Assembly (NCBI GenBank): GCA_018650285.1
Contig: JABIGF010000021.1
Location: 62,001 to 126,000, forward strand
Source: Methanobacteriota archaeon
GTDB lineage: Archaea; Thermoplasmatota; Poseidoniia; Poseidoniales; Thalassarchaeaceae
Direction of reading: 5' to 3'
Length of the DNA: 64,000 bases
Shown here: positions 534 to 60,856 of the stretch, one piece after another
Layout of the letters: every line of letters begins with the position of its first letter
Position numbering within the stretch: the stretch's first letter is position 1
Translations under genes and position numbers: made by a program
The notes under the pieces: generated by a model
What the model was told of the DNA's origin: nothing
The model's input: only the letters and a program-made list of their open reading frames with translations
Database searches by the model: none

Positions 534-632
534 TATGGGAAGCCCAACGTATCTCACCACTCTTGTAAAGGAAAAATTCGATGTGAGGCGGCACGAAGGC
601 TTCAATGAGGTCGGGCGTAACGGAGGGGTTAG

Positions 633-1115: not shown

Positions 1116-1166
1116 GAGTATTCACTCAACCAACGTTCCAAACCTAAGCGGAATCAACTGAATTGA

Positions 1167-10184: not shown

Positions 10185-10405
10185 ACAAGAAAAGGTGACT
10201 TGATTTCATATCTGCCTACGGCAACAGTCAACTGTTGTCACAATAAAGCCCTTAATTTAACAAAAAATGGACCTGATTAATACACCATATATCTACTCAA
10301 TAGTTCAGAAGTTTCTAACCGCCATTCAATGCCCAAAATATACCATCATATAATAACAAATTAGTTGGTTTTATTGCACCCAAAATATGTTTTATTTTGA
10401 CATTA

Positions 10406-11803
10406 TTAATTAGAAGAAAATAATGATTTAATCCAACTAATAAGTCCCCCACTTCGAACGGTCTTTTCGACCTTTGAACCGACCGGTTGTCGCAAAATTA
10501 AATCGCCATCACGACCTAAATCATTGTAGGGGAATTCGAACCTGAAATTCATGAATAGGATTAAATTATCCATGTTTTTAAAGACTGAACTAATTCGGTA
10601 GCCGAATTTTGTTTTGAATTGATTCCCCACATCAGCATAATTTGCAGGGAGTTCAATTTCGGCTAAAAATGGGATGCTTTTTTCAACTTTAGGTGGCAGT
10701 TGATAAATTGAAATTTTTAATTTATCTAAATTATTTTCACTAAGAGCCTGTTTGAAATCTGCCAACGACATTTTTTGCGCTGTTGTTCGCTTTTTTGTTT
10801 CATTTTTTGAATCGGATTTATTCCCCTTAGGTGTAGCAGAACTTGACTGATTACTACTTTGGGTGACAGGATTGTTTTGACTCTCCTTTTTTGACTCTGA
10901 CTGACTCGCAGCCCCACTACCCTTGCCCGAAGCGGAAACTACTGCCGAGCGGAGATGAACATCGACTGGTTGTCCTTTAACCAAATCGACCTTTAATTCG
11001 CCTCCCATCAACTCAACTAGTTGCTCATGGAATGGATTACTCGTTTTGATATTCATCGCCCCCATTAACTCCTTTCGATTAGCAAATTGACAACCAATAT
11101 TTTCACCTACGAGGGCAGTTATCTCAGAAGCAAGAAGGCCATAATTAACTGACCCATCGGATAACCTTGCCCTCACTGCATTACGGAAAGCTTTGCGTGA
11201 TTTCCTAACCGTTGGCAATTCTCCACTTTTCATTTGGGCTTCAGAGCCTTTTTTCTGTTTTGTCTGTGGTGTTTTTTTGGTTTTTTTCTCATCACCAGCA
11301 TTTGTCTCTTTTACCTTTTTATCGGGTTTTTTTGACGGTTTAGGCACTTCAAAAGAAGGGTTTGGCAAGAAGATATCGCCTGCAAACGTGTATGAAATAA
11401 CCTTTGCATCTCGCCATTTGTAGAATCCTTCCTCGCCACTATCTGGATACTTTGAAACATGGTCTTTCATCCTATCATTTGTCACAGCGAATGCTCCTTG
11501 CTGCCAAGCAAAGTGTAGCCAATAATCATCATCATGATCTTGAGAAGGAACTGAAACAACAGTGCCCTTAGCCTTTAACCCGCGTAAGAGGGCTGGATTG
11601 TCTACTCCCTTCTTTCCTGCATTATCGCTCAGATAATGGCGTGGCACAAAAGCATACACTTCGTATCCTAAATCAGCATAATAGGTAATTGCGGTAACAA
11701 TACCCGAGGCTGATGCTGGCCACTTATTCCCTGAATGACTCATGCCCACATTGGGCCCATCAATCACAATCAATACTCTAGACTCATCTGCGTTTTCTGC
11801 CAA
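10406..11803 (-). CDS. NYN/PIN-like ribonuclease resembling the Zc3h12a/Regnase family, with Lys-rich linker and extra C-terminal domains
   Basis: VLIVIDGPNVGMSHSGNKWPASASGIVTAI...YEVYAFVPRHYL...DHDDDYWLHFA...AVTNDRMKDH...ISYTFAGDIFLPNP. TTG start with GGAGGGG Shine-Dalgarno. Confidence 0.75.
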   Translation of the reverse strand: MAENADESRVLIVIDGPNVGMSHSGNKWPASASGIVTAITYYADLGYEVYAFVPRHYLSDNAGKKGVDNPALLRGLKAKGTVVSVPSQDHDDDYWLHFAWQQGAFAVTNDRMKDHVSKYPDSGEEGFYKWRDAKVISYTFAGDIFLPNPSFEVPKPSKKPDKKVKETNAGDEKKTKKTPQTKQKKGSEAQMKSGELPTVRKSRKAFRNAVRARLSDGSVNYGLLASEITALVGENIGCQFANRKELMGAMNIKTSNPFHEQLVELMGGELKVDLVKGQPVDVHLRSAVVSASGKGSGAASQSESKKESQNNPVTQSSNQSSSATPKGNKSDSKNETKKRTTAQKMSLADFKQALSENNLDKLKISIYQLPPKVEKSIPFLAEIELPANYADVGNQFKTKFGYRISSVFKNMDNLILFMNFRFEFPYNDLGRDGDLILRQPVGSKVEKTVRSGGLISWIKSLFSSN

Positions 11804-11955
11804 TTAGCAACCCCTCCTAGGGGTAAAGACTCAACATCTAGACCTCGTGAATAGTGATGAAAGCCCCTCTTCAGGGCCGCCATCGAATTCTACGCGTCCG
11901 ACCTAAGTCGTTGAATCGCCCTGATGCGGGCTCTATTAGAACCCTCTGAATACAA

Positions 11956-14916
11956 TTAATCATCGATTAATTCAATTTCATCCAAATCTTCGTCAACTGC
12001 TTCTTCTTCTGAGTCGCCCATTAATTCTTCATCAGTAACAGCATCAGGTAGGTCAAATAGTTCATCTTCATCATCTAGATATTCCTCTTCTTCTTCCCAT
12101 TCATTTGTCCGACGCTTACGGCCAGCAATTGCTGCTACAATCAACAATACAAAACCTGCAAGCATCATCTTGGTTGTTGTTCTCATGTTGCTAAGTTCAT
12201 TTGTAATCCTAGTTGTAGGATTATTTATTTCTACTCTAATATCAACATCTGCTTCAGCATTGTATTCATCAGAATAACCTGTAGTGAATGATTGTGGTTT
12301 CCCTATGACTTTGATAGTATGAAAGTCACCATGCCGTGCATCACTTGATGATGACACGTGTAAATTGAATGTAATTTCCGAAAAGGCTGGCACTAATACC
12401 AATGATGATTGAGTATCTGGATTCTGAGCCGTTGCAGCCCAACCACTTGGCGCCTCAGCAGTAAGAACGACTTGCATATCCGTATTACCCTCATTCTTGA
12501 GTCGCATTGTGTAATCAGTAGTATCACCTGGGAGCATTGGTTGGTTTGCTGAAACTTGAACTATCTTCAGCGCAGGAACTCCCTCTCCTACTCCTATACT
12601 AATAGGGAGGTCAAAGAAACGCGGCGTTCCTGAACCAGTTGATTCTTCAATACGTAGGTAAATGGTGTGATTTGCAGCTAATACTTGGTTTGTCAAATGA
12701 ATCTCTAACCAGAATTCTTCAGAGTCCCCTGCTGTCATTTGCATTACCGGCATTGGGTCATTATCAAGATTAGTAATCATATAATCCCAAAGAGTGTAAC
12801 GCCCTTCTTCAGCGTCAGCATTACGATCGTAATCAGCCGGATTGACTATTCTCCAATCAATTAATGTATTTTCGTCACCTGATGTTTGAGTAGCTTCTAT
12901 CCTCATTCTAACATCTATGTACTCATCACTATCATCATTCAAACAGTTCTCATACTCAATGTGACCTAGCCCATTTGAGGCTCCATCACAATCGAAGACT
13001 ACTACCGCTTGCATTCCATTTGTTCTATGCGGGGTGAATTGAATAATAGCTGAAAGCGAGGTATTACCAGCACTGGAAAATTCCACCTCCAACAAACCAA
13101 AATCTGGGTCATCAGGCTGACCTGAAGGATTGACGTAAAGAATCAATACATAATTTGAGTGGCGAGGTAATGTAGGAGTATGCCACAGCCCATCATTAGG
13201 GTCTTGAGTAATCATCTGTCCGGTTTGATTATCAACAAAGTAGAACACAGTCCCACGTGGCTTCTGAGTAACATCAAATCTGAATTCATCAGAATCAAAA
13301 CCCGTGTTGAATAGTTCAATGTAAAAAGGAGTGGGGGGCCCTAAATCATCAACAAACTGAGGCACCGTTACATCAAAAGATTCCGGCCTAGAAGAATTGT
13401 AGATTTGGTTTTCATGCTCAGTATCCCAAAGAGAAATCATTGGCGGAGCAAAAACATCTAGTTTCTCAAGTGTGATTTGAATCATGGTATAATGAACTTC
13501 GGCGCCGCTGGTGTTGTACGCTCTAACAGAAATATCTAGACGAGGAGGAGCATTACCCAATTCAGTAGGTGCTTCCAAAGTCAACTGGGCTGTCACTTCA
13601 TTCCCACCATCAGAAAGTGAATATCCCTCAGGGCGGTCAAATTGTGCCAACCAACTTGAATCAAGGCTTGTTTGAACTGCTAACTCAACATCCAAAGATG
13701 AACCTGAAGAACCTGTGTGCCTCAGTACTAATTGAATTGGAGTAGTCTGGTCTGGGGCGATATACTCTGTATTTCGGTCAGCAGCATTTCTCACATGAAC
13801 GCCATACTGCTCAACCACTACTTCTTCATGCTCAAAAACGAATGGATTCGGACCTTGTATGTCTAATACTGAAAGTGTCAAAGAATAAACTCCAGATTGA
13901 ATACCCGATGGATATGTCCATGTATAACTACCAACAAGTCCGCCATTGTCATTGGTTAACTCGGCGTTGTTGAAAGTGTGGTCAACGGGGTAACTTCCAT
14001 CAGGTGCTCGTAACTGTACACTAACTTGAGTGACATCTTCTCGACCTAGGGCATTCAATACATCAATCTTGAATTCCATTGCACGCTCATCAGGGAGGGC
14101 ATTTGGGAACCATTCCAATGTTTCAGGGTCGGTCCAAAGAGCACCTTCTGTGAAAATTCTAACTTCACTTCCTGCAGCAGCATTAGACCAAAATTCCATC
14201 ATTGAATAATCATCAGAAGAGTCAGGGTCACCCCACATTACTTCTGCATCACAAGATGGGCCACCAAATGGATTACCACCACCTTGGCCTTCACAAGAAG
14301 ATTCTGCTGAAATTTCTAGAGTCAAAGCCCCTCCACTCGGAATCGTCTTGTATTGATCACCGGGCCATTGTAATCTAACGATTTCTTGATGCCATCCACA
14401 ACCAAATAAATCGTCACAAGCACTCTGCTCCTTCTGAGTGGTGGCAACTGTTTCAGAACCTCCTGAAGATGATTCGATTCTCAAAGTAAAGGTGTAAGTT
14501 GCAGTCTGCTGTTGTGAACCTGCTGTAGCCTTGAGGAATATGTTGACTGGAATCTCCCAACCACTGCTACCACCAGAAGCAGCCCTGCCACCTATTGGCA
14601 TATCTGCTAATACCGTCCTTGTTCGGAATTCTAGTGTATCTGTCAAAGCTGAGGCGTTGCTTTGGCCGTTGTTGGGTGTTTTTGTTGTGAGGTATCCATC
14701 GCCTCCTGCGGTTGAATTTCTTTTATCGATGAAAATATTGTATAGTTTCATCGGAATCTCTTCGCCAGAAAAACGCTGTTCTTGAACTGCTACGAGCGAT
14801 TCTTGAGTAGTAGTAGCATATGGGGCGAGTAATGTTGACAACATCACACAGACGAGAAACAAGGATGCAGTTGAGACGCCTCTTGCTGATTGCGAGAGAG
14901 ATGCTGATAGTTCCAC
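11956..14916 (-). CDS. secreted, membrane-anchored beta-sandwich (NEW3/CARDB-like) surface protein with acidic cytoplasmic tail
   Basis: 986 aa; N-terminal signal-like segment; LPGDTTDYTMRLKNEGNTDMQVVLTAEAPSGW is NEW3-like; C-terminal TM KMMLAGFVLLIVAAIAGRKRR followed by Glu/Asp-rich tail. Confidence 0.8.
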   Translation of the reverse strand: MELSASLSQSARGVSTASLFLVCVMLSTLLAPYATTTQESLVAVQEQRFSGEEIPMKLYNIFIDKRNSTAGGDGYLTTKTPNNGQSNASALTDTLEFRTRTVLADMPIGGRAASGGSSGWEIPVNIFLKATAGSQQQTATYTFTLRIESSSGGSETVATTQKEQSACDDLFGCGWHQEIVRLQWPGDQYKTIPSGGALTLEISAESSCEGQGGGNPFGGPSCDAEVMWGDPDSSDDYSMMEFWSNAAAGSEVRIFTEGALWTDPETLEWFPNALPDERAMEFKIDVLNALGREDVTQVSVQLRAPDGSYPVDHTFNNAELTNDNGGLVGSYTWTYPSGIQSGVYSLTLSVLDIQGPNPFVFEHEEVVVEQYGVHVRNAADRNTEYIAPDQTTPIQLVLRHTGSSGSSLDVELAVQTSLDSSWLAQFDRPEGYSLSDGGNEVTAQLTLEAPTELGNAPPRLDISVRAYNTSGAEVHYTMIQITLEKLDVFAPPMISLWDTEHENQIYNSSRPESFDVTVPQFVDDLGPPTPFYIELFNTGFDSDEFRFDVTQKPRGTVFYFVDNQTGQMITQDPNDGLWHTPTLPRHSNYVLILYVNPSGQPDDPDFGLLEVEFSSAGNTSLSAIIQFTPHRTNGMQAVVVFDCDGASNGLGHIEYENCLNDDSDEYIDVRMRIEATQTSGDENTLIDWRIVNPADYDRNADAEEGRYTLWDYMITNLDNDPMPVMQMTAGDSEEFWLEIHLTNQVLAANHTIYLRIEESTGSGTPRFFDLPISIGVGEGVPALKIVQVSANQPMLPGDTTDYTMRLKNEGNTDMQVVLTAEAPSGWAATAQNPDTQSSLVLVPAFSEITFNLHVSSSSDARHGDFHTIKVIGKPQSFTTGYSDEYNAEADVDIRVEINNPTTRITNELSNMRTTTKMMLAGFVLLIVAAIAGRKRRTNEWEEEEEYLDDEDELFDLPDAVTDEELMGDSEEEAVDEDLDEIELIDD

Positions 14917-15160
14917 GGCTATGCCGTGTCAACGGTCCGTTAAAGGGTTCATGGTTCAAAGCACAAAATGTGCGTCATTCCCAACCCTCAATAATTGTGG
15001 CGAATAGTAGACTAAATCAAAGCCGACAAATGACAAAAACGGGGGCAAAAGTAGATTTGAAATTATCTCGTTGAGATGTTGCAATATTCAATCATTACCA
15101 CATCACTTTCAGCCTTCATCCGTTTACTTGAAGTCTGAGGCGTATCCCCGTGCCAATCAA

Positions 15161-15247
15161 GCAGGGGTTGCCAAGCTTGGTCAACGGCGCCGGACTTAAG
15201 CTCCGGTCTCAAGAGGTTCGAGGGTTCGAATCCCTCCCCCTGCACCA
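15161..15247 (+). tRNA. tRNA-Leu(UAA), class II, encoded CCA
   Basis: Acceptor GCAGGGG/CCCCTGC; D-stem GCC/GGC; anticodon stem CCGGA/TCCGG with loop CTTAAGC (anticodon TAA 15197-15199); long variable arm; T-arm GAGGG-TTCGAAT-CCCTC; terminal ACCA. Confidence 0.97.
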
Positions 15248-15270
15248 AAATACTATATTTTTCAACTGAA

Positions 15271-15690
15271 TTAGTTGCGCGGATAATCTGGTTTTAACCG
15301 CATCATACGACATCCAATTTCACTAGAATCTGAATATACATCCAGTTTAGTTGCGGTTACTGCTGCTGCAACAACTTCAATCTGCGCAAGAAATGTATCC
15401 AGTAAATCGGCAACAAGAGATTCTAGCAAGTTGACTCGAACACCTGCAACTTTGTCATTAATCCTACCTCGTATGAAATCATAATCAAGAACTTGATCAA
15501 TTGCATCTTCATTGGGAGAATCAGCCCCTGCCAAGTAAATATCAACATCAAATCGAATTCTTTGTGTAACTCCTTGCTCATCTTCATTGACACCAATTTC
15601 TAATTCAACGATAAAATTTCGTAGTTGCAAAGTGGTTAATGCGAAGCCAACCTGTTCCACTAACTGACGTTCAAACTCAAATGATTCCAA
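15271..15690 (-). CDS. folB: dihydroneopterin aldolase-like (FolB-type)
   Basis: LQLRNFIVELEIGVNEDEQGVTQRIRFDVDIYL...LDYDFIRGRINDKVAGVRVNLLESLVADLLDTFL; TTG start directly after the SDR stop codon. Confidence 0.75.
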   Translation of the reverse strand: MESFEFERQLVEQVGFALTTLQLRNFIVELEIGVNEDEQGVTQRIRFDVDIYLAGADSPNEDAIDQVLDYDFIRGRINDKVAGVRVNLLESLVADLLDTFLAQIEVVAAAVTATKLDVYSDSSEIGCRMMRLKPDYPRN

Positions 15691-16440
15691 TTACTCACCT
15701 CTCTCGTAAAGCACATCTCGGTCACGCCGATTGAATCTCTCGCCGCCATCCACGAATATCACCTGTCCGGTTACACCTTTTGCATTAACAAGGAATACGA
15801 CCGCATCGGCAATATCTTGAGCAGTAGCGCCACGCTCTAGTGGAGTACTATCATGCACCTCTTCAAAATCAGATATTGAGGCGTGCGGAGAGGGCAAAAT
15901 TAAACCTGGAGCAATGCCATTTACTCTAGTGCTAGGTGCAAGGCCAATTGCCAACGATTCTATGAGCCCCCCAAGGGCCACTTTGGAAGTGGTGTAAGAA
16001 AGATAATCTGGGTTTGGATTTTGTAATTTATTATCCAATATATTTACTATACAACCATCTACTAAATTTGGTTGTTTAGATAATTCCTCACATAGGATAA
16101 GTGGGGCTAATGTATTGATTGCTATAGACTGATTGAATAGATTACAATCTAATGAGCCAATTGTATCATATTCAAACAATGAAGCATTGTTAATAAGGAT
16201 GTTTATTTGACCAAATATTTTGCTTGCATTTTCAAATAATAATTGCACTTCATGAGTGTTATCTAAATTGGCTTTAATGGTAGCCGCTTTTGATATTTTA
16301 TTGAGTTCTTCTGCAAGAGATTTTGCTGAGTCTTCTGAGTTGTAATAATGAATGATTACTGAGTGACCTGATTGTGCCAAAGTGCGGCAAATTTCAGCAC
16401 CTATTCTACGACTACCGCCGGTAACTAATGCGACCCCCAT
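15691..16440 (-). CDS. short-chain dehydrogenase/reductase, pteridine reductase/FolM-like
   Basis: VTGGSRRIG Rossmann motif, ILINNASLFEYD, Y-x-x-x-K (YTTSK), terminal DGGERF; adjacency to FolB. Confidence 0.75.
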   Translation of the reverse strand: MGVALVTGGSRRIGAEICRTLAQSGHSVIIHYYNSEDSAKSLAEELNKISKAATIKANLDNTHEVQLLFENASKIFGQINILINNASLFEYDTIGSLDCNLFNQSIAINTLAPLILCEELSKQPNLVDGCIVNILDNKLQNPNPDYLSYTTSKVALGGLIESLAIGLAPSTRVNGIAPGLILPSPHASISDFEEVHDSTPLERGATAQDIADAVVFLVNAKGVTGQVIFVDGGERFNRRDRDVLYERGE

Positions 16441-16633
16441 CTAATCACCGTTAAATTAAGCGATATGCCATTGTGTCTTGAGCCTACCGCGTTGAATTGA
16501 ATGTCCTTTGAAATCAAAGCCTTAACTTCAACCACCCCTCCCCTTCGGTTTGGAGATCTAGTTGGCAGGCCATCACCTACCTCAATCAGACGCTGCCGGT
16601 TCACAATCAGGCGGTTGTGGCGGGGCTGCTCGA

Positions 16634-17620
16634 ATGACTGTAGAGGAACGACGGAAATCCGAAAGAAAGAGGCTTCCTACTTGGTTTAGAACGACATTAC
16701 CAGTAGGTGAAGCGCAAAAACGCTTCAATGAAACAAAATCTAGAGTGAATGAAAATAGCCTCCACACTGTATGTGAAGAAGCTCGTTGCCCCAATGTACA
16801 CGATTGCTGGGGGCGAGGCACGGCAACCTTCATGATTGCTGGACAAGAATGTACTCGCGCATGTAGATTCTGTGCTGTTGGCACAATAAAGACGCCTCCG
16901 CCTCTAGATGAAGATGAACCAGCGAAATTAGCCCAGGCTGTTGCCAACATGGGCATCTCTCATGCAGTCATCACCGTAGTCAATAGAGATGACCTAGATG
17001 ACGGCGGAGCAAGTCACTACAAACAGTGTATTAATGCAGTTAAAAATCAGGCGCCAAATGTGACTTTAGAATTTCTCTGTTCAGACTTAGATGGAAATAT
17101 GTCAGCACTTGCCGACTTGCTACATGAAACCCCACTTTCAGTGTTTGCACATAATGTTGAATGTGTGCCAAGATTAGATGAAAGCGTGCGTGATTCGCGC
17201 GCCTCATTTAATCAATCAATATCTATCTTAAAAGAAGCAAAAAAACTTCGCCCAGACATCCTCACAAAGAGCAGTTTGATGGTCGGAATTGGTGAAACTG
17301 ACGATGAAATTGAAGAGGCGATGAGTTTGCTTCGTGAAGCTGGTGTTGACATCATCACACTTGGACAATATCTTCAACCATCATGGAAGCATTTGGCTGT
17401 CGAGCGCTTTCCAACTCCTGAACAATTCTCTCAATGGGATGAGTACGCCCGCGCTAGCGGATTCAAGGCAGTTGCAAGTGGACCACTAGTACGCTCATCG
17501 TACCGTGCAGGCTTGTTGCTTTCTGAGGCAAAAGGCGGCCAACCTGTCGCCACTCTAGGCACCAATAGTGCGGCTGTAACCAATTTCTCCTCCAGCCCAT
17601 CTAAAGATGGGCCCGCATGA
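16634..17620 (+). CDS. lipA: lipoyl synthase
   Basis: CEEARCPNVHDCWGRGTATFMIAGQECTRACRFCAVGT (both LipA Fe-S cysteine motifs). ORF track starts at 16562; ATG 16634 (MTVEERRK) is the likelier start. Confidence 0.95.
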   Translation: MTVEERRKSERKRLPTWFRTTLPVGEAQKRFNETKSRVNENSLHTVCEEARCPNVHDCWGRGTATFMIAGQECTRACRFCAVGTIKTPPPLDEDEPAKLAQAVANMGISHAVITVVNRDDLDDGGASHYKQCINAVKNQAPNVTLEFLCSDLDGNMSALADLLHETPLSVFAHNVECVPRLDESVRDSRASFNQSISILKEAKKLRPDILTKSSLMVGIGETDDEIEEAMSLLREAGVDIITLGQYLQPSWKHLAVERFPTPEQFSQWDEYARASGFKAVASGPLVRSSYRAGLLLSEAKGGQPVATLGTNSAAVTNFSSSPSKDGPA

Positions 17621-17655
17621 AAATCATCATAGTCATACCCCTAAGAGGAGATTAC

Positions 17656-18897
17656 ATGACAGGGGAGGCGCAGGATGGGAGATTGGACGGCTTCACAGTT
17701 CCAGATGCACCTCGTAGACCTGGTGAACAAGCGCATTTTGAACCTTGGACTTTCACCCCTCAAGACCTAAATCGACCAGATCCAAAGACTTGTACATCAG
17801 CAGACACATCTGAACACGCTTCAGGTTTAGTTAGAGTTCTAGATGATGATGGTATTGCCAGTGGTGCTTGGCATCCAAATCTCAGTCCAGATGAATTGCG
17901 CCAAGGACTTGAGATGATGTGTCGTCTCCGAATTTTTGATGACCGAATGATGAAGATGCAACGCACTGGAAAACTCTCATTTTACATGCGGTCATTGGGC
18001 GAAGAAGCAATTGCGATTTCACAAACAATGGCCTTGCAAGAACACGATTGGCTATTCCCAACCTACCGGCAACCTGGCTGCCAATTTGTCCGAGGGCGCA
18101 GTATGGTTAGCATGATTAATCACTGCATCGGCAATGTTGAAGATAATGTCAAAGGGCGTCAAATGCCAGTTCATTACACATATCGAGAAGGACACTACAT
18201 CTCTGTTTCAAGCCCAGTCGGGACTCAATTTTCACAAGCCGTTGGAGTCGCTATGGCAAGCGCCTACAAAGGTGAAGACCAAGCAACGATAACATGGATA
18301 GGAGATGGCGCTAGTGCTGAAGGAGATTACCACTACGCAGTCAACTTTGCTAGCATTTTCAAACCGCCAGTCATTCTTTGCGTTGTCAATAATCAATGGG
18401 CTATTTCCACCCACCGACATTTTGCCTCAGGAGGAAATAATTTCGCTACTAGAGCATTGCCATACGGCATCCCTTCATTCAGAGTTGATGGTAATGATTT
18501 CCTCGCCCTTTATTCAGTCACCAAGTGGGCAAGAGAGAGGGCTTCCGCAGGAATGGGCGCCACTCATATTGAAATCTTGACATATCGAGCAGGTGCACAC
18601 AGCAGTAGCGACGATGCAAGTCTTTATCGTCCTGCAGACGAACATGAACATTGGCCCGGGGGCGACCCAATTGACCGGCTTAAGAATCACCTAATCACTA
18701 CTGGCGAGTGGAGCGAGGAAAAACAAATTGCTCTAGAACAGCAACTCGACGAGGAAGTTGTCGCCGCATACAAAGAAGCGGTAACACACGGTGATTTGGC
18801 GAATGGACCTTGGCCACCAGCCAGCACCATCTTTACTGAAGTATACGAAGAAGTACCTTGGCATATCCAAGAACAAAGAGAGGAGTTAGGAAAGTGA
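17656..18897 (+). CDS. branched-chain-type 2-oxoacid dehydrogenase E1 alpha
   Basis: FYMRSLGEEAIAISQTMALQEHDWLFPTYRQPGC, ThDP motif GDGASAEGDYHYAVNFASIFKPPVILCVVNNQWAIS; Shine-Dalgarno-like gaggag before ATG 17656. Confidence 0.93.
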   Translation: MTGEAQDGRLDGFTVPDAPRRPGEQAHFEPWTFTPQDLNRPDPKTCTSADTSEHASGLVRVLDDDGIASGAWHPNLSPDELRQGLEMMCRLRIFDDRMMKMQRTGKLSFYMRSLGEEAIAISQTMALQEHDWLFPTYRQPGCQFVRGRSMVSMINHCIGNVEDNVKGRQMPVHYTYREGHYISVSSPVGTQFSQAVGVAMASAYKGEDQATITWIGDGASAEGDYHYAVNFASIFKPPVILCVVNNQWAISTHRHFASGGNNFATRALPYGIPSFRVDGNDFLALYSVTKWARERASAGMGATHIEILTYRAGAHSSSDDASLYRPADEHEHWPGGDPIDRLKNHLITTGEWSEEKQIALEQQLDEEVVAAYKEAVTHGDLANGPWPPASTIFTEVYEEVPWHIQEQREELGK

Positions 18898-18898
18898 G

Positions 18899-19918
18899 GT
18901 GATTGTGATGACTGAAATGAACATGATACAATCATTGAACAGCGCTCTTAACAATATGTTAGAGTCAGATCCAAACGTCCTCATTTTTGGAGAAGATGTT
19001 GGTTACTTTGGCGGTGTTTTCCGAGTTACTGACGGCTTGCAGGAAAAACACGGTTCAAACCGTGTGTTTGATGCACCTCTTGCAGAGGGAGGAATCGCTG
19101 CAATTGCCTTTGGAATGGGCCTAAACGGACTACGTCCAGTAATGGAAATTCAATTTGCCGATTACATATTCCCTGCCTACGACCAAATTGTTAACGAAAT
19201 GGCAAAACTCCGCCACCGTAGTGGTGGAGAATTTAGTACACCTGTAACCATCCGAACACCGGCTGGCGGAGGAATCAAGGGTGGACATCATCACTCGCAA
19301 TCTCCTGAAGGGCAATTCACTCACACACCTGGAATCAAAGTGGTTTACTGCTCCAACCCATACAATGCAAAAGGTCTCCTAATCAGCGCAATTGAATGTA
19401 ATGACCCTGTCGTATTCTTTGAACCAAAAAGATGCTACCGCGGGCCATTTTATGGTGACCCTCACAACGTTCCAACTTGGAAAGGGCACCAATATAGCGA
19501 TGTCCCAGAAGAGCACTACACAATACCTATTGGAGAAGCAAATATGGTGATGGAAGGTGACAAATGTACAGTCATTGCTTGGGGAGCAATGGTTCATGTT
19601 GCCGAACAAGGAATCAAAGATTCAGGAATCTCATGTGACCTTATTGACCTTCAATCACTAATCCCATGGGACAAAGATGCAGTCGTAAACTCAGTCAAGA
19701 AAACTGGCCGCTGCGTGATAGTCCACGAAGCCCCAAAAACCAGCGGTTTTGGCGCTGAGATGTCAGCTAGCGTACAAGAGCGCTGCTTCTATCATCTTGA
19801 GAACCCTATTGAGAGAGTCACAGGATGGGATACACCTTTCCCGCACAGCACAGAATGGGATTATTTGCCAAATCCACAAAGGATTGCTGATGCAATAAAA
19901 CGAACACAGGAGGATTGA
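18899..19918 (+). CDS. 2-oxoacid dehydrogenase E1 beta
   Basis: MNMIQSLNSALNNMLESDPNVLIFGEDVGYFGGVFRVTDGLQEKHG...FDAPLAEGGIAAIAFGMG; start could be 18899 or slightly downstream. Confidence 0.95.
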   Translation: MIVMTEMNMIQSLNSALNNMLESDPNVLIFGEDVGYFGGVFRVTDGLQEKHGSNRVFDAPLAEGGIAAIAFGMGLNGLRPVMEIQFADYIFPAYDQIVNEMAKLRHRSGGEFSTPVTIRTPAGGGIKGGHHHSQSPEGQFTHTPGIKVVYCSNPYNAKGLLISAIECNDPVVFFEPKRCYRGPFYGDPHNVPTWKGHQYSDVPEEHYTIPIGEANMVMEGDKCTVIAWGAMVHVAEQGIKDSGISCDLIDLQSLIPWDKDAVVNSVKKTGRCVIVHEAPKTSGFGAEMSASVQERCFYHLENPIERVTGWDTPFPHSTEWDYLPNPQRIADAIKRTQED

Positions 19919-53130: not shown

Positions 53131-53943
53131 TTACAAGATGTATGTTGAAAAATCATACAAATAGCGCATCAAACTAAGACTAACTGCTACTAAGAAAGTG
53201 TTTGTAACCACTCTTTTTGGCACATATTGAATTGCATATTTGGCCCCAAAAAAGGAACAACAAAAAGCCAAAGCAGGAATCAAAATCATTGGTAGCAGTC
53301 CAATACGATCTACCAATACCCCTAGGGTACCATCAATGATTATGTGGCTAACTAAGGCAACAGGAACAATGGTCGCACCAATCAGATAACTAGTCCCTGC
53401 AGCTTTATGGGCATCCATTCCTAACAAGGAACGGTGTAGTGTGACAAGAATTGCCCCCCCTCCAATCCCCAACAAACCTGAAGCAATACCGGCCAAGGAT
53501 GTCCCCAACCGATACTTGCCAATCTGTTCAGAAACATTAACCTCAATAGTAGAACCATTTGCTTCTCTTCGCATTCTTGTAAGTGTTCTCTCAATAACAA
53601 ATGCGAGAATTATCGCGGCAAGAATCTTGATAACAACAGGGTCAACGTTTTTGATTAACAATGAGGCAATAATAGAACCAACTACAGCCCCAGGTATTGC
53701 CATTTTTCGCCCCACACTTGCTACAATTTTATCGGCATGCCCACCTTTAGAATGTGACATGCTGCTCCCTAATGCAACCATAAATACCAATCCAAGTGAA
53801 CCTAACAAAGCATCTTCAATTGACCAACCCAAAAGGTAGTGAAAAATTGGCACGAATAGCACCCCTCCGCCAAGTCCTAATGGTGAAAATGCTAAGGCTA
53901 CACCTAAGAGCAAAAAGATACCAATCATTATCATTAGTTCCAT
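53131..53943 (-). CDS. TauE/SafE-family permease (sulfite exporter-like)
   Basis: LGLGGGVLFVPIFHYLLGWSIEDALLGSLGLVFMVALGSSMSHSKGG...GIASGLLGIGGGAILV; repeated TM topology. Confidence 0.88.
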   Translation of the reverse strand: MELMIMIGIFLLLGVALAFSPLGLGGGVLFVPIFHYLLGWSIEDALLGSLGLVFMVALGSSMSHSKGGHADKIVASVGRKMAIPGAVVGSIIASLLIKNVDPVVIKILAAIILAFVIERTLTRMRREANGSTIEVNVSEQIGKYRLGTSLAGIASGLLGIGGGAILVTLHRSLLGMDAHKAAGTSYLIGATIVPVALVSHIIIDGTLGVLVDRIGLLPMILIPALAFCCSFFGAKYAIQYVPKRVVTNTFLVAVSLSLMRYLYDFSTYIL

Positions 53944-53951
53944 TTCAACAC

Positions 53952-56690
53952 CTACTCCTTCTTGAGAATGAAATGTTCAGCCTTTGGTGCCAATGGGCGT
54001 TTCATCCACAATGGTCTACGCTCACCACGTGGGTGCGTTTCTCTCTCTTTAGCCCAATCATTCCATTTCTTGTAATGCGCCATTGATTTGTTCATATCAA
54101 CTTCAACATCGCCGTAGGCCTCACCATCTCTAGGTTTTGAAAGCCAAACTTTCTGCAACCAACAATGTGCACCACTAATTGGATCGGGTTGAACTGCGTG
54201 AGTGATATTTTGATGGACACCACCATCTCGCCACCAGATTCTGTTTGTATCAGGGTCACTAGATTCCCATGAATTGACGCCTTCAACAGTACGCATTCTC
54301 ATTTTTCCATCGCCATTATCTGTTATTTCAACAGTATTTGTCATGAAACGATTTCCACGGTCTTGTTCCCTACGCCATCTTCCGATGTGATGAGAACAGG
54401 CTACAACACCTGGTTTTATTGATTCTGTAACCCACACCTTGTCTACAAACCAACCAATTTCTGTCTGAATCTTTAGTAATTCGCCTTCTGAAACACCTAA
54501 CTTCTCAGCATCCTTAGGATGAATCCAAATTGGGTTCTTGTGAGCGATTTCAGCCAACCATTTTGCATTAGCTGAACGGGAATGAATATGTTGTGGTAAA
54601 CGGAAATTTGGCAGAAGACAGTAAGCATTCTCTTCCTGTAATTTTGATGGGTGGACATGACTATTAATTCGATAGTGAGGTATTGAATGCTCAGGATATC
54701 CAAACTCAATCATAGTCTCAGAGTAAAACTCCTGTTTGCCGCTTGGAGTTGGCCAACCTTCTTTTTCATGCACATTGTAAACAGACGGTTCAATCAAGAA
54801 AGCACCGTGCTTCCTCATGTAATCAAGTGCCGTCAACCCCTCTTTTTCAGCGGCTTCAGGAAGCCCTGGAACATTCTCAAATGTGAATTGGTAGTACTCA
54901 TCTACGGTGATTTTTTCACCCTCTCTGTATGGGCTCATGAAATGCTCACGGATACCCATCGTGCCATCATCAATCCTCCACGAAAGTTCAATCCAAAATT
55001 CATCTTCTTCCCAAACCGAACCAGGATTTACCTCGTGAGTGAACTCTACCTCACGACCCTCTCTTCGTGCATACTCTCGAAGGACTGGTTGTCTGAATGC
55101 AACCCATTTACCCGCTTGTGTGGCGTATGAATTGATGTCATGCCTCTCTGATGAATGGCCCATAGGAAGGACATAATCGGCTAAAAATGCCGTTTCGTTC
55201 CATGTTGGCGTTAATGCCACATGGCAGCCAATTGAATCCTCATTCTGTAGCATCTCCATCCAAGAGAATCCATCAGGATATGTCCAAACAGGATTGAATA
55301 CACGAGTGAAATATACATCCATCTCACCTCTTCCTTCTTTCACCATGTGTGGCAAAATATGGCTCATTTCGTAATGAGCTAGTGTATATTCAGGAGGATA
55401 GTGTAATTCATTCCAGCCATCAGGTGCTGGTGGCTCATCAAAGAGAGTCGGCTTGTACTTAGTCCACGAATTAGGGGCTGTGCCACCAACGGTCCCTACC
55501 GAACCAGTCAACACATTCAGGAAATGTAAGGTTCGGCTAACTTGCCAGCCACCAAGATTTCCAATACTTGCTGAGCGCCAGACATGAGCAGAAAGTGCAT
55601 TTCCAGCCTCAGCAACGATTTCACCGACTTCAATCACCTGTTCAACAGGAATCCTACACTCTTCAGCAGCAAATTCGGGAGTATAATCGGCATATTCCTT
55701 CTTCATTAATTCAATGAAATTCTCAAAATTACAATCTACATCAGGATGGTCGGCCTTGAGCCACATTTCCCAATTAACCCAATTTTCAAGGAACTCGCGA
55801 TCGTAAGTCCCCTTGTCAAGAATCATCTTCGCCCATGCGAGGAATAATGCGGGTTCAGAACCAGGCCATGTCGGCACCCAATGATCTGCCATTGCCGCAG
55901 TATTCGAAAGACGTGGGTCAATGACGATGAGTTTAGCACCATCCATCATGCCCTCCAATATCCTCTGTGCGTGCGGGTTGAAGTAATGGCCTGTTTCCAA
56001 GTGAGAGGAGGTGAGAAGAATTACCTTCGCGTTAGCGTGGTCAGGCGAAGGGCGGTCGTGTTTATGCCAAAGTGCATAACCTGTCCGAGCCCCTGCTGAA
56101 CAAATATTTGTATGGCTGTTGTGACCATCAACCCCCCACGCTTTGAGTACGCGATTTGCATATCCTTCATGGCCCGGACGACCGACGTGATAGACTACCT
56201 TGTCAACAGCACCAGTCTTTAGAGATGCTCGGATTTTCTCAGAAATCTCATCAAGTGCTTCTTCCCAAGAAATTTCTTCCCAATCCCCAGAACCTCTCGC
56301 ACCTTTACGACGCATTGGATGAAGAATTCGCTCAGTATCCTGGATTTGATTGATTGTTGCAGGACCCTTTGCACAATTTCTCCCTCGGCTTCCAGGGTGA
56401 TGCGGGTTGCCCTCAAACTTGGCAACATCTCCCGAATCTTTGTCAACATAGGCCAATAGGCCACAAGCCGATTCACAGTTGAAGCAGGTTGTTGGTACAA
56501 GTGAGTAATTTCTCTCTATTCTCTTTGGCCAAGCATTTGCATCAAGCTCAGTGTGATTATGCCACTCAGAAGGGTCGGGGTATCGCCGCAGTGGCCCATC
56601 CGCGCCATATGCCCACTCTCTTTCCGAAATCTTTGGGATTAAGCGCACACTCTCCGCTATTTTTTCAATGATTGATCTTTTTGCACCCAT
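53952..56690 (-). CDS. molybdopterin oxidoreductase catalytic subunit (SoeA/Psr-like), no Tat signal
   Basis: CFNCESACGLLAYVD...GRNCAKG 4Fe-4S motif; SHTNICSAGARTGY predicted Mo-ligand region; GNPHHPGSRGRNCAKG. Confidence 0.88.
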   Translation of the reverse strand: MGAKRSIIEKIAESVRLIPKISEREWAYGADGPLRRYPDPSEWHNHTELDANAWPKRIERNYSLVPTTCFNCESACGLLAYVDKDSGDVAKFEGNPHHPGSRGRNCAKGPATINQIQDTERILHPMRRKGARGSGDWEEISWEEALDEISEKIRASLKTGAVDKVVYHVGRPGHEGYANRVLKAWGVDGHNSHTNICSAGARTGYALWHKHDRPSPDHANAKVILLTSSHLETGHYFNPHAQRILEGMMDGAKLIVIDPRLSNTAAMADHWVPTWPGSEPALFLAWAKMILDKGTYDREFLENWVNWEMWLKADHPDVDCNFENFIELMKKEYADYTPEFAAEECRIPVEQVIEVGEIVAEAGNALSAHVWRSASIGNLGGWQVSRTLHFLNVLTGSVGTVGGTAPNSWTKYKPTLFDEPPAPDGWNELHYPPEYTLAHYEMSHILPHMVKEGRGEMDVYFTRVFNPVWTYPDGFSWMEMLQNEDSIGCHVALTPTWNETAFLADYVLPMGHSSERHDINSYATQAGKWVAFRQPVLREYARREGREVEFTHEVNPGSVWEEDEFWIELSWRIDDGTMGIREHFMSPYREGEKITVDEYYQFTFENVPGLPEAAEKEGLTALDYMRKHGAFLIEPSVYNVHEKEGWPTPSGKQEFYSETMIEFGYPEHSIPHYRINSHVHPSKLQEENAYCLLPNFRLPQHIHSRSANAKWLAEIAHKNPIWIHPKDAEKLGVSEGELLKIQTEIGWFVDKVWVTESIKPGVVACSHHIGRWRREQDRGNRFMTNTVEITDNGDGKMRMRTVEGVNSWESSDPDTNRIWWRDGGVHQNITHAVQPDPISGAHCWLQKVWLSKPRDGEAYGDVEVDMNKSMAHYKKWNDWAKERETHPRGERRPLWMKRPLAPKAEHFILKKE

Positions 56691-56699
56691 CAAATCACC

Positions 56700-58112
56700 T
56701 CAAATTAAACTCTCCAACTGTGGCCCTTGGACCACATGCTTACCATGATTCCAAGCCAATAACAATACCACTGCAGAAATAATGCCGGTAACCACACTTG
56801 GTGAAACTAAAGGCAAGAGAACTGCTCCACCAACAACTGCTGTCTCAATCGTAAACTTCAGTGGAAGTGTCGAGTCTCTCGCCCATGAACGGCCCTTGGC
56901 TTGTTGCAATAACCATGCAGTGTATATCCCAGTCAGGAAAGCAAGAGGAATGCCTGCATAAGCAAGCCACTCTAGGAATGTTCTATCAAGGTCAAATAAT
57001 AATACAGCCATACTCATTGAAAGTACTGCCCCATATCCTCCGATAATGTACGCTCCCCTGACAAGCCAGGAGGACCAGTTAGGCCTCAAAAAAACATAGA
57101 GAAATCGCTCTGGGCGGTCAAGGTCAAGCAAAAGGAAGATTCCTGTGACCCCTAAGAAGACTAGACCCACACCCAATACAGCCCACCATAGTTGGTCGGT
57201 CATGACGAGGTTACCCGATAGCCACATGAGCATAGCAATCATGTATGTGCCAGAAGCGATTGCTTTAGTCCAAATATAGGCTGAAACTTCCCACCCCCAA
57301 AGAATACCCTTGGAAGGAGCATCATATGCACGCTTTGGATTTACATTTTCATTTACCAATTTCTCTGCTACATCTCGGATAATTGCTTGGTCTCTTGGTG
57401 CTGCATTGCGAGCCTTCTTTTCAAGAGCAAGTTGTACGAGCATTGAGGGTGTATCTGCATCGCTCAGGCGCGCATCAGCATATTTTGCAAAATGGCCTAC
57501 ACCTAATTCCTGCTCGGACCACATACCTGCACCGGTCCTCTCAGTTGCCTGAGGATTAAGCATCACTTCACTTCCCTTTACATAGAATAGATTTGGTTTA
57601 GTTCCAGCTTCTGGTTTACGTACCATCACATCATTATCTAAAATACGCAGTGCAATTTCTGATTCGGGGTCATCTAAATCGCCAGAAATAATTGATTGTG
57701 TAGGGCAAACAATCACGCAGGCTGGCTCATATGAATTCTCAATTCTGTGAGCGCAATAATTACACTTCGCTGCTGTGCCCTTGTTAGGATCGATGTATAG
57801 AGCATCATAAGGGCAAGCTTGCATGCAGGATTTACACCCTATGCAACGCTCATCATCAAAGTCAACAATCCCATCGCCACGCGTATATAGTGCAGTAACA
57901 GGGCAAATGGTTGTACAAGGAGCATCCTCGCAATGATTGCAACGGTGGACTGAAAATTCTCTAGATGAATTTGGATAAGTTCCTGTTTCGATGTACTTAA
58001 CATGAGTTCGATTAACACCAATTGGCACATCGTGCTCAGATTTACAGGCTACAGTACATGCATGGCAACCGATACAAGTACGGTTATCAATTACAAACCC
58101 ATAATTAGCCAT
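56700..58112 (-). CDS. fused 4Fe-4S ferredoxin + NrfD-like membrane subunit
   Basis: CIGCHACTVACKSEHD, CNHCEDAPCTTICP, CIGCKSCMQACPYDA, CNYCAHRIENSYEPACVIVCP, then NrfD-like TM helices. Start ATG 58112 with GGAGG upstream. Confidence 0.9.
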   Translation of the reverse strand: MANYGFVIDNRTCIGCHACTVACKSEHDVPIGVNRTHVKYIETGTYPNSSREFSVHRCNHCEDAPCTTICPVTALYTRGDGIVDFDDERCIGCKSCMQACPYDALYIDPNKGTAAKCNYCAHRIENSYEPACVIVCPTQSIISGDLDDPESEIALRILDNDVMVRKPEAGTKPNLFYVKGSEVMLNPQATERTGAGMWSEQELGVGHFAKYADARLSDADTPSMLVQLALEKKARNAAPRDQAIIRDVAEKLVNENVNPKRAYDAPSKGILWGWEVSAYIWTKAIASGTYMIAMLMWLSGNLVMTDQLWWAVLGVGLVFLGVTGIFLLLDLDRPERFLYVFLRPNWSSWLVRGAYIIGGYGAVLSMSMAVLLFDLDRTFLEWLAYAGIPLAFLTGIYTAWLLQQAKGRSWARDSTLPLKFTIETAVVGGAVLLPLVSPSVVTGIISAVVLLLAWNHGKHVVQGPQLESLI

Positions 58113-58152
58113 TAATAAAACCTCCAATTTGATTTGAAATTCGTTAAATCGT

Positions 58153-59304
58153 TTAACTTGTATGATTTGATGCAGCGCATTCATTCTTTCCTAAATCCAT
58201 GACATTCTGCTCATCGTTGCAAGGTGTCAAATGCCCTGAATTGACTTTACGGATTTGCCCATATATTTCGGGCTGTTGCCTCATATTTGATTGTATGAAT
58301 GAAACAAAATCGTCAATATCATCAATACCATATATTTCCTCATTATTTCTCTTAATTGTCCCAAAATCATTAATGATGCGCATTTCTGAATCTGCCTCAG
58401 CAGACCAATCAGTATAATGCCCTGGGAGCACAAGTAGTGAGTCTGGTAATATTGAAATTCGCTCTTTGATAGTGCCATAGAGCATTTTTGCCCACTCAAC
58501 TACCTGATTACCCAAATCAGGACGGCCAACACTAACAATAAATACAGTGTCTCCAGAAATCAAATATTTTTCACCTATCACATATGAGGTCGAACCTGGT
58601 GTATGTCCGGGTGAATGAATACAAAGAGTTGAGGGGCCACCTTCATTAGAAAAATCAAACGATTCACCATCAATTAATGAACGATATTCGTGAATTGCGG
58701 AACCATAATCGCCATCATGAGCAACAAAAGTCGCACCCGTTTCCTTGGCAATAAGTGGACTTCCTGAAATATAATCTGCTTGAAGATGCGTTTCAAAAGT
58801 ATGTGTTATGTCAGCACCACGAGATTCCGCAAAATGCTGATAAAACTCCACATTTCTTGAGGGGTCGAAAAGAAACATTTCGCCCTCATACACCAAACCA
58901 TACGAACATGAAGCCTTGCCAGGCCTATTGAACTGCCACATTTCATACGAATCGCTATCAGAGTTAATTCTCTTAGAAACTAGAACATTACCCCATGACA
59001 CAATCCCGCCTTCAAGATGAGATATATCTTCGCGACCAAAATCAGCCATCACAGAGGCAACGAATTCTGATGAACCTTCTTTAGCACAAACAATTTTCAG
59101 TGGTTTGCCCGATGGTACTTTCGCAACACTAGATTCAGGCCTCTCTATAAAATCAAAATATGGGATGTTCAACATCTCTATTTCATTAGGGCCCTCTACA
59201 CTAAAGTTGGAGAAATCTTCTTCATTCCTAACATCAAGTAAAATAAAATCAGCACCCGACTCAATTGTCTCAAAAAGTTCTGTGGCCGTAAAAGTAGTAA
59301 CCAT
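58153..59304 (-). CDS. rhodanese (N-term) + metallo-beta-lactamase-fold persulfide-dioxygenase-like (C-term) fusion
   Basis: Rhodanese FILLDVRNEEDF...KIVCAKEGSS; MBL ETHLQADYISGSPL, IHSPGHTPGSTSYVIGEKYLISGDTVFI, LPGHYTDWS. Start ATG 59304. Confidence 0.87.
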   Translation of the reverse strand: MVTTFTATELFETIESGADFILLDVRNEEDFSNFSVEGPNEIEMLNIPYFDFIERPESSVAKVPSGKPLKIVCAKEGSSEFVASVMADFGREDISHLEGGIVSWGNVLVSKRINSDSDSYEMWQFNRPGKASCSYGLVYEGEMFLFDPSRNVEFYQHFAESRGADITHTFETHLQADYISGSPLIAKETGATFVAHDGDYGSAIHEYRSLIDGESFDFSNEGGPSTLCIHSPGHTPGSTSYVIGEKYLISGDTVFIVSVGRPDLGNQVVEWAKMLYGTIKERISILPDSLLVLPGHYTDWSAEADSEMRIINDFGTIKRNNEEIYGIDDIDDFVSFIQSNMRQQPEIYGQIRKVNSGHLTPCNDEQNVMDLGKNECAASNHTS

Positions 59305-59314
59305 TTCAATCACC

Positions 59315-59824
59315 TCAAATGAAAAGTTGTAAATCCGCGTCGGCTGCAAATTCTAGGAATGTTGCCGCGCCACCAATAGTTACTCCATCAATGAATTCGT
59401 CTAATTCAAAACCAAATACATCCATTGTCATTTGACATCCAATCAACTCAACACCAAGTTGCGCACACATATCTCGAAGTTCTGTTATTGTCGCCACACC
59501 TTTGTTCTTGAAGGTCTTCTTCATTAGACTAGTTGCAACGGTTTCAAAACCAGGCACATTGTTTGAAACAACATTTGGAATCGGCCAATCAATCCCTTGG
59601 AATGCTTTGGGACCAAATGGCATCTTCATCGGCATCGAAGGGTTTCCTGCTGGGCTAACTTTTGCTTTGATTTTTTTCTTCAATAGTGGCAACCCATAGA
59701 AAGTGAAGAAGATTTTGACATCCATATCCATTGCAGCCGCAGTAGAAGCTAGAATAAATGGAGGGTATGCCCAATCAAGAGTACCTTTACTAGCAATAAT
59801 GGCCATTGTTTTCCTATCACCCAT
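59315..59824 (-). CDS. DsrE/DsrF-family protein (DsrE2-like)
   Basis: MAIIASKGTLDWAYPPFILASTAAAMDMDVKIFFTFYGLPLLKK...GVELIGCQMTMDVFGF; conserved Cys. Confidence 0.85.
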   Translation of the reverse strand: MGDRKTMAIIASKGTLDWAYPPFILASTAAAMDMDVKIFFTFYGLPLLKKKIKAKVSPAGNPSMPMKMPFGPKAFQGIDWPIPNVVSNNVPGFETVATSLMKKTFKNKGVATITELRDMCAQLGVELIGCQMTMDVFGFELDEFIDGVTIGGAATFLEFAADADLQLFI

Positions 59825-59825
59825 T

Positions 59826-60059
59826 TCATTCACCCTTCCTAATGTAGAAAACAAATTTGTCTCCTTCTTCGCAACTCTCGACCAAAACGTGCCCAACTCG
59901 AGATGCCCACGCAGGCATGTCATTACAAGCACCAGGATCAGTCGATATTACTCGCAACACTTCACCATCTTTCATCGTATCAATTTTCATTTTTGTCTTT
60001 AAGATTGGCAAGGGGCAATTCATCCCACTGCAATCCAATTCATCATTGTATTCTTTCAT
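59826..60059 (-). CDS. tusA: TusA-family sulfur carrier
   Basis: LDCSGMNCPLPILKTKMKIDTMKDGEVLRVISTDPGACNDMPAWASRVGH; CPxP motif. Start ATG 60059. Confidence 0.93.
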   Translation of the reverse strand: MKEYNDELDCSGMNCPLPILKTKMKIDTMKDGEVLRVISTDPGACNDMPAWASRVGHVLVESCEEGDKFVFYIRKGE

Positions 60060-60070
60060 ATTTTTCACCT

Positions 60071-60397
60071 TTATTCTTCTGAGTACATTATTTTTTGCGA
60101 CTCTATTAGACAGTTTAGCATCTTTAGAATCAAGGGGCTGGCTATTGAGTAAAACATTCGATTGCCATCGCGGCGGCAACTAACGATCTTACGGTCTTTC
60201 ATTTGCCGTAATAACTGACTTGTGACCGGTTGAGATAACCCTGTATGCCTCTGAACCTCTCCAACACTCTTCTCTCCGCTTTCCAAGAATTCAACTATTC
60301 TAATACGGTCAGAGTGGCCTAGCATTTTGACAATACCAGAAACTTCTTGGAGAAAAACAGCGTTAAACACTGTAGATTCATGTTCTCCTGTAACCAT
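60071..60397 (-). CDS. ArsR/SmtB-family winged-helix regulator
   Basis: IVKMLGHSDRIRIVEFLESGEKSVGEVQRHTGLSQPVTSQLLRQMKDRKIVSCRRDGNRMFYSI; only two Cys, no ELCVCDL metal site. Confidence 0.9.
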   Translation of the reverse strand: MVTGEHESTVFNAVFLQEVSGIVKMLGHSDRIRIVEFLESGEKSVGEVQRHTGLSQPVTSQLLRQMKDRKIVSCRRDGNRMFYSIASPLILKMLNCLIESQKIMYSEE

Positions 60398-60408
60398 TCA
60401 TCGCACCT

Positions 60409-60484
60409 ATACCAACCGGTATGCCCGGCAGTATATAACTATCATCATATATTCAAATATATTGATTATTAGATATATTCAATA
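60409..60484. promoter_or_regulatory. divergent promoter with nested inverted repeats (candidate ArsR operators)
   Basis: ATACC-AACC-GGTAT (60409-60422), TCAA-ATATA-TTGA (60453-60465), TATTGA-n13-TCAATA (60460-60484); minus-strand TATA-like TTATATAC at about 60431-60438. Confidence 0.55.
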
Positions 60485-60508
60485 AGGGCGAGTCTCCCGG
60501 CCGGCTCA

Positions 60509-60856
60509 ATGTGGAACCTGTTCAGTAGCGCAAACGACATCTCGGCTAGCCAAGTGATAAAGAAAATTGATGATGGATGGAGGCCGTATATCATTGATGT
60601 TCGCTCACGAGGTGAAGCGAATCAAACAGGTGTCATGAAAGGGACTAAACTCATCCACCCACATGGAAAAATTGCTGAAAAGAGGAAGGAACTCCCTCGT
60701 GACCGAGATATTCTCATCATCTGCCGAAGTGGAGCGAGGTCAAGTGTCGCCCTAAATAAATTGAAAGCGATTGGCTTTGAAAATGATTCTCTCTTCAACC
60801 TAAAAGGTGGGATCAAAGCCTATGCAAGAGCCGGTGGCGCTATCAAACGCCTTTGA
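60509..60856 (+). CDS. single-domain rhodanese
   Basis: YIIDVRSRGEANQTGVMKGT...ILIICRSGARSSVALNKLKAIGF; active-site loop CRSGARS. Confidence 0.9.
   Translation: MWNLFSSANDISASQVIKKIDDGWRPYIIDVRSRGEANQTGVMKGTKLIHPHGKIAEKRKELPRDRDILIICRSGARSSVALNKLKAIGFENDSLFNLKGGIKAYARAGGAIKRL

Follow-up and report, generated by a model that had tools for sequence, protein, structure and literature searches.

Organisation of the locus

The 64,000 nucleotide stretch of DNA analysed here (the window; contig JABIGF010000021.1, from an archaeon of the family Thalassarchaeaceae, order Poseidoniales) carries, between positions 53131 and 60856, eight genes grouped around a molybdenum (Mo) oxidoreductase subunit and a fused iron–sulfur (FeS)/NrfD membrane protein. 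An earlier reading made from the letters of the window (the sequence-only reading) had described a tight minus-strand cluster running from an ArsR regulator to a TauE transporter, together with a divergent rhodanese; all eight genes lie where it had placed them and give strong profile matches.

The seven minus-strand genes encode, in order, ArsR, TusA, DsrE2, a rhodanese–metallo-β-lactamase fusion (Rhd-MBL), FeS-NrfD, the Mo subunit (MoA) and TauE. FeS-NrfD and MoA form the constant core of the locus in the genomes compared below, whilst ArsR–TusA–DsrE2–Rhd-MBL is a detachable cassette. Refined starts were assigned to TusA (60059), DsrE2 (59824), Rhd-MBL (59304), FeS-NrfD (58112) and MoA (56690), with an AGGTG/AGGTT-like Shine–Dalgarno sequence ahead of every one, and the intergenic gaps from ArsR to TauE are, in order, 11, 1, 10, 40, 9 and 8 bp. 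The seven genes are most simply read as one operon, a plausible view given gaps so short (1–40 bp) and a Shine–Dalgarno sequence at each start. The arrangement is not due to chance, since other genomes of the order, and other phyla as well, have the same set.

The last gene of the series (53131..53943, minus strand) encodes a TauE/SafE-family anion exporter of 270 residues (PF01925, 3.7e-24). The divergent gene (60509..60856, plus strand) encodes a single-domain rhodanese with a CRSGAR loop (PF00581, 6.7e-11); it appears to be accessory and to lie outside the core, as a clear counterpart (82%) was found only in one genome of the same genus and a weak match in a single further locus (L258). Genes for TraB, a thiolase and a flotillin flank the locus; together with other features, such as the two-family structure of the order, they point to a planktonic archaeon of Marine Group II.

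The molybdenum subunit and its fused FeS-NrfD partner

MoA (53952..56690, minus strand; 912 residues) is a predicted molybdenum–bis-pyranopterin guanine dinucleotide (Mo-bisPGD) catalytic subunit; residue numbers given here run from a TTG at 56693, that is, on a 913-residue count. Profile searches identified molybdopterin oxidoreductase, Fe4S4 and dinucleotide-binding domains (PF00384/PF04879/PF01568). An N-terminal [4Fe-4S] motif (CxxCxxxC...C) is present at residue 70, Cys198 aligns with the residue that binds Mo in Thermus PsrA (Cys173), and no twin-arginine (Tat) leader was found in the MoA sequence. The adjoining gene (56700..58112, minus strand) encodes 4Fe-4S dicluster (SoeB/PsrB-like) and NrfD-like quinone-binding membrane anchor domains in a single open reading frame of 470 residues (494 before start refinement), with matches to Fer4_11 (3e-23), NrfD (2e-11) and Thermus PsrB (5e-50).

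Among solved structures and curated families, the best matches of the complex are Thermus PsrA/PsrB and PhsA, which favours a reductive role in which polysulfide, sulfur or thiosulfate would be reduced with quinol, as by PsrABC, PhsABC and Aquifex SreABC. The window complex shares its superfamily, subunit types and Cys Mo ligand with PsrABC and PhsABC; their catalytic subunits, however, are Tat-exported, reductive, ~760 residues long and 24% identical to MoA, which lacks a Tat signal and lies on a separate branch. Reduction also finds a precedent in bacterial SreA, a cytoplasmic sulfur reductase that forms one cytoplasmic lineage with SoeA, with five archaeal members in that survey (PMC10100899). 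Nonetheless, the operon partners of the Mo gene are oxidative (a predicted O2-dependent dioxygenase, sHdr or green sulfur bacterial dsr genes, see below), and the literature presents Marine Group II archaea as obligately aerobic heterotrophs (PMC6336850), in line with such a dioxygenase. We therefore consider a reductive role unlikely.

A different substrate, with the complex acting as a formate:quinone, DMSO (dimethyl sulfoxide) or other oxidoreductase placed beside sulfur genes by chance, is likewise improbable. In its favour, a passage of PMC6741140, citing Martin-Cuadrado 2008, takes a Marine Group II locus with Mo, 4Fe-4S and TraB genes as a hint of DMSO respiration, and NrfD-like complexes of Actinobacteria, Chlorobi and Chloroflexi have been tentatively named formate:quinone oxidoreductases by FdnGH homology (PMC8076601). 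As a cytoplasmic protein whose Mo ligand is a cysteine, where DMSO reductases have Ser, MoA is neither a DMSO reductase nor a PhsA; this ligand, the DmsA identity and the missing Tat leader rule out a DmsABC assignment. Identities are 24% to PhsA and, over partial length, 24% to DmsA and 23% to FdnG. Rhodanese, persulfide dioxygenase (PDO)-like, TusA, DsrE2, SulP, TauE, sHdr and dsr genes, moreover, recur beside the Mo gene across phyla, and the window's genome has a separate NAD-linked formate dehydrogenase-like gene pair (906 and 622 residues, with an FdhD-like neighbour; G000:C20:96000-106000). The latter includes the second Mo-pterin gene of this genome, which is unrelated to MoA.

In the tree, MoA falls within a clade of SH-aLRT support 100 on a long stem. 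Identity inside this clade is at least 52%, across many phyla, whilst the nearest full-length matches outside it are Tat-exported enzymes of ~30% identity. No clade of known non-sulfur function encloses MoA, and in this respect the assignment to sulfur chemistry in the sequence-only reading withstood comparison. Its description of the complex as SoeABC-type did not. The window complex resembles SoeABC of Allochromatium and Aquifex in having a cytoplasmic Mo-bisPGD subunit (~950 residues) without a Tat signal and with a Cys ligand, an FeS subunit and a quinone-side anchor, and the reaction proposed for the two would be the same. However, a putative SoeA from Paraburkholderia graminis (L236), picked by its operon (977/251/319 residues) and size, the Allochromatium and Aquifex proteins not being compared, lies outside the MoA clade and is 31% identical over 245 of 913 residues. 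The anchor in that reference operon is a separate DmsC-family protein, whereas that of the window is an NrfD domain fused to the FeS protein. MoA is most likely the catalytic part of an uncharacterised type of quinone-linked oxidoreductase that faces the cytoplasm and oxidises sulfite (or sulfur at the persulfide level).

Two other sources of an SoeA reference were set aside: a search for Pseudomonadota SoeA (through L115) met a phylum rich in other complex iron–sulfur molybdoenzymes (CISMs) with no recognisable SoeA, and the second CISM of Chlorobiaceae (L194, L196) is Tat-exported. No SUOX-type sulfite oxidase was found in the window's genome (88.6% complete). A Tat-exported MoA homolog on a Sulfurovum mangrovi plasmid (L055:9800-13400), 48% identical in its N-terminal piece, is split over two reading frames and is either frameshifted or misassembled.

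The rhodanese–MBL fusion, sulfur carriers and regulator

The rhodanese/PDO-like gene (58153..59304, minus strand) encodes one fused protein of ~383 residues, with an N-terminal rhodanese domain (PF00581) and a C-terminal metallo-β-lactamase (MBL) domain (PF00753), which in phmmer searches matches Rhd/MBL proteins and ETHE1. Alignment of 11 homologs revealed invariant rhodanese Cys88, His188, His249, Asp267, an RPDL motif and a C-terminal Cys391; His188, His249 and Asp267 we take to correspond to the iron ligands of ETHE1. Rhd-MBL has both domains, the iron-ligand residues and the GRxD-type motif (as RPDL) in common with PDO–rhodanese fusions of the ETHE1 family (BpPRF, CstB), but its domain order is reversed relative to BpPRF and CstB, the second His of the HxHxDH motif is replaced and the invariant C-terminal Cys is additional. 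An AlphaFold model of Rhd-MBL built from three sequences (pLDDT 49) was too poor for geometry and was not used.

Both predicted sulfur carriers have the features expected of their families. TusA (59826..60059, minus strand; 77 residues; PF01206, 7e-24) carries the active-site CPLP motif (CPxP at residue 15), and DsrE2 (59315..59824, minus strand; 169 residues) scores 212.5 bits against the curated equivalog NF047629 (SulfCarrDsrE2; cut-off 210). The first operon gene (60071..60397, minus strand) encodes an ArsR/SmtB-family regulator (NF033788 metalloregulator, 67.7 bits; cut-off 55); in every relative examined that has the cassette, its ortholog stands first in the operon. A Cys in the C-terminal helix is kept in archaeal copies; a second Cys, present in part of the copies, sits before the wing and not at the alpha-2 position of SqrR/BigR, so that of the canonical alpha-2/alpha-5 cysteine pair the alpha-2 Cys is absent from ArsR.

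Distribution within the order

Of the 320 genomes compared for the order, 85 have the Mo gene, and they come from 15 of its 22 genera. Within the same family the count is 45 of 98, a few of them having no more than a distant paralog. Elsewhere in the phylum there is one class-mate copy (G100, 72%) and otherwise remote homologs only, which suggests that the gene was acquired by transfer. All long loci examined have the fused FeS-NrfD gene as partner of the Mo gene, with TauE following in about half.

The cassette genes are nested within this distribution. All 21 genomes with Rhd-MBL (of 320) are Mo-positive, 17 of them with both genes on the same contig within ~4 kb (hypergeometric 1e-13, assuming independent genomes, though these are related), and the eight family genomes with DsrE2 (of 98) are all Mo-positive too, with the genes on the same contig within ~13 kb. 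The sequence-only reading had expected the module to be co-conserved across relatives; this stands, but for a core plus cassette and not for one fixed island.

One genome (G034; L035/L061) has a decayed cassette in which DsrE2 and TusA are fragments, with Rhd-MBL and the Mo pair intact. In genera without TauE, the thiolase and Mo genes are separated by pairs of genes for small DUF2061-family membrane proteins (L040, L042, L046-L048); a role as TauE replacement was ruled out, as G022 carries both TauE and a DUF2061-like gene.

A predicted sHdr system in the same slot

In two genomes (G022 and G076) the stretch from ArsR–TusA–DsrE2 to the Mo genes is ~10 kb longer. In G022 (L059) it begins with genes for DsrE, a GcvH-like lipoate-binding protein, a thioredoxin-like protein, HdrC, HdrB and a 353-residue HdrA, continues with an uncharacterised protein, a fused HdrC/HdrB, EtfB, EtfA and a 685-residue HdrD-like membrane protein, and leads from there directly into FeS-NrfD, Mo and TauE. 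The lipoate-binding protein (LbpA) copies of G022 and G076 have a lipoyl ESGK motif and cysteines near the N- and C-terminal ends, described traits of the LbpA of sulfur-oxidising heterodisulfide reductase-like (sHdr) systems (PMC6067878). By gene order, the L059 stretch corresponds to an sHdr system in its Etf-linked form, Group III of PMC6067878, known from Actinobacteria and Firmicutes; the archaeal cases in that work are Sulfolobaceae (Group II, scattered genes).

The same sHdr order accompanies the Mo gene in G803, from another family (L254), and in the class-mate G100 (L255) HdrA, EtfA and an HdrD-like gene lead into FeS-NrfD and Mo. The combination of hdrC1B1A-hyp-C2B2 order with an LbpA bearing N- and C-terminal Cys was assigned to L059 (positions 1-19801), L060 (from G076) and L254 (LbpA itself is not visible on the L254 contig). 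An sHdr marker gene at >80% identity occurs in three of the 320 genomes of the order; Group III-like clusters lie at the same locus in three order genomes, the complete one with TusA and DsrE2, whereas the window itself has Rhd-MBL instead. The same molybdoenzyme would therefore be preceded, in the same position, by either of two unrelated predicted routes from persulfide to sulfite. A limited search of the open literature found no paper on this operon, or on sHdr, in Poseidoniales. HdrD-like proteins of ~670–700 residues (33% to sHdr HdrC2B2) are present in most of the order and are probably electron transfer flavoprotein:quinone oxidoreductases.

Related loci in other phyla

A genome scan returned more than 570 relatives; the best 80 loci come from Chloroflexota, Bacteroidota, Chlorobiota, Planctomycetota, Acidobacteriota, Rokubacteria and others, and the fused FeS-NrfD gene adjoins the Mo gene in nearly all of them. 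Rhd-MBL, DsrE2, TusA, FeS-NrfD and Mo occur together on pRHL3 of Rhodococcus jostii, in a Chloroflexota locus (L088) and in a Rhodothermia-like locus (L094), and haloarchaeal plasmids combine Rhd-MBL, TauE, FeS-NrfD and Mo. Amongst the operonic neighbours of the Mo gene at the loci retrieved (n=110) we counted 21 rhodanese, 15 Lactamase_B, 12 SulP and 5 TauE genes; in distal genes of the same loci (n=96) SulP was counted once, with no rhodanese, Lactamase_B or TauE among the listed families. SulP-family permeases, some of them rhodanese-fused, recur beside the Mo gene (L088, L094, L106, L116 and others) and possibly transport sulfate or sulfite.

In green sulfur bacteria, polysulfide-reductase-like complexes PSRLC1 and PSRLC2 have fused PsrBC. 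PSRLC3 has been put forward as an alternative sulfite-oxidising system of these bacteria (PMC6338057). The Mo gene is present in 14 of 21 Chlorobiaceae genomes. In Chlorobium (L139, L149) the order is FeS-NrfD, Mo, TauE, DUF1634, DsrE2, rhodanese, TusA and a cobB-like gene, followed in L139 by DsrC, DsrA, DsrB and DsrL; in Chlorobium sp. N1 dsrC and dsrA come a short way after the Mo/FeS-NrfD pair and TauE. The Chlorobium complex, a polysulfide-reductase-like one, is orthologous to that of the window and resembles it in its Mo subunit (56% identical), the same fused FeS-NrfD, the adjoining TauE and, in L139 and L149, DsrE2, rhodanese and TusA. It differs in that sulfite would come from reverse Dsr rather than from a dioxygenase or sHdr, and in its host, an anaerobic phototroph; the complex itself is uncharacterised. 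Across the 21 Chlorobiaceae genomes (L139, L143), the Mo gene and a ~965-residue Tat-exported CISM show largely complementary distributions, and a functional replacement of one by the other is possible.

Proposed pathway and physiological role

We propose that the operon encodes a cytoplasmic sulfur-oxidation pathway with sulfite as the likely substrate of the Mo enzyme and the quinone pool as electron acceptor, and put the probability of this reading at about 0.7. From their families, TusA and DsrE2 would carry sulfane sulfur as protein persulfide, and the rhodanese domain of the fusion would load it onto a low-molecular-weight or protein thiol. The MBL domain, to judge by its family and conserved residues, would act as an Fe-dependent dioxygenase converting persulfide and O2 to sulfite, which MoA, on the cytoplasmic side, would most likely oxidise to sulfate. 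Two electrons would presumably pass from the MoA cluster through the ferredoxin-like domain of FeS-NrfD to the membrane quinone pool, TauE would export sulfite or sulfate, and ArsR may repress the operon until reactive sulfur is present. The sulfite-making step appears exchangeable (Rhd-MBL in the window, sHdr-LbpA-Etf in some relatives, reverse Dsr in Chlorobium) around a constant Mo/FeS-NrfD pair.

The sequence-only reading, in proposing a unit of sulfur delivery, oxidation of persulfide to sulfite, a quinone-linked molybdoenzyme and TauE, was right on the genes and probably on direction and general purpose: the unit is co-conserved, as seen in the nested occurrence, the sHdr replacement, the dsr context in Chlorobium and the enrichment of sulfur genes. 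It is from this context that we infer that the substrate is sulfite, that the complex works oxidatively and that it serves energy gain rather than detoxification, and the labels of that reading, 'complete to sulfate' and 'sulfur-mixotrophic', would apply in the same conditional sense.

Several observations weigh against the proposed pathway. The Tat-exported enzymes nearest to the MoA clade are of unknown function, a tree with SoeA as sister of that clade is not rejected (p-AU 0.36), and a cytoplasmic CISM can be a sulfur reductase, as in Aquifex SreA, which clusters with SoeA (PMC10100899). The MBL domain of this order reads THLQADY where ETHE1-like enzymes have THxHADH, so that the HxHxDH motif is incomplete, the changed His positions being non-ligand. 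About three quarters of the Mo-positive genomes are without the Rhd-MBL cassette, and most have no identified sulfite source beside the Mo gene.

The same chemistry might mainly serve to detoxify persulfide and sulfite from the breakdown of cysteine or of taurine and other organosulfur compounds, with electrons merely recovered; this overlaps the pathway proposed above and is a serious, if lesser, possibility. PDO, rhodanese and TauE-like genes are often under ArsR-type sulfane-sulfur repressors, in oxidation or detoxification (PMC12423496), the distribution of the Mo gene and Rhd-MBL in the order is patchy, and no sulfide:quinone oxidoreductase (SQR), Sox or thiosulfate system turned up, although no search aimed at SQR was made. 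A quinone-linked respiratory complex, however, exceeds the needs of detoxification, as does the full sHdr system of relatives, which includes EtfAB and an HdrD-like membrane protein.

Few archaea of the surface ocean are as common as those of Marine Group II, which models treat as strictly heterotrophic; should the operon oxidise reduced sulfur, the group would be tied into thiosulfate, sulfide and organosulfur cycling. More tentatively, at a little under even odds in our estimation, the Mo/FeS-NrfD pair may represent a widespread sulfite:quinone oxidoreductase that differs in type from SoeABC and from SUOX/SorAB and forms a common exit for reverse Dsr, sHdr and rhodanese–dioxygenase routes, through which about a quarter of the sampled genomes of the order would be aerobic sulfur mixotrophs. 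The pair would then give a candidate sulfite oxidase to many organisms in which this step is unassigned, green sulfur bacteria included. In haloarchaea and Rhodococcus (L052, L053, L058) the Mo gene is directly followed by a gene for an Mrp/NBP35-type ATPase, a possible cluster-loading factor that is absent from the window operon.

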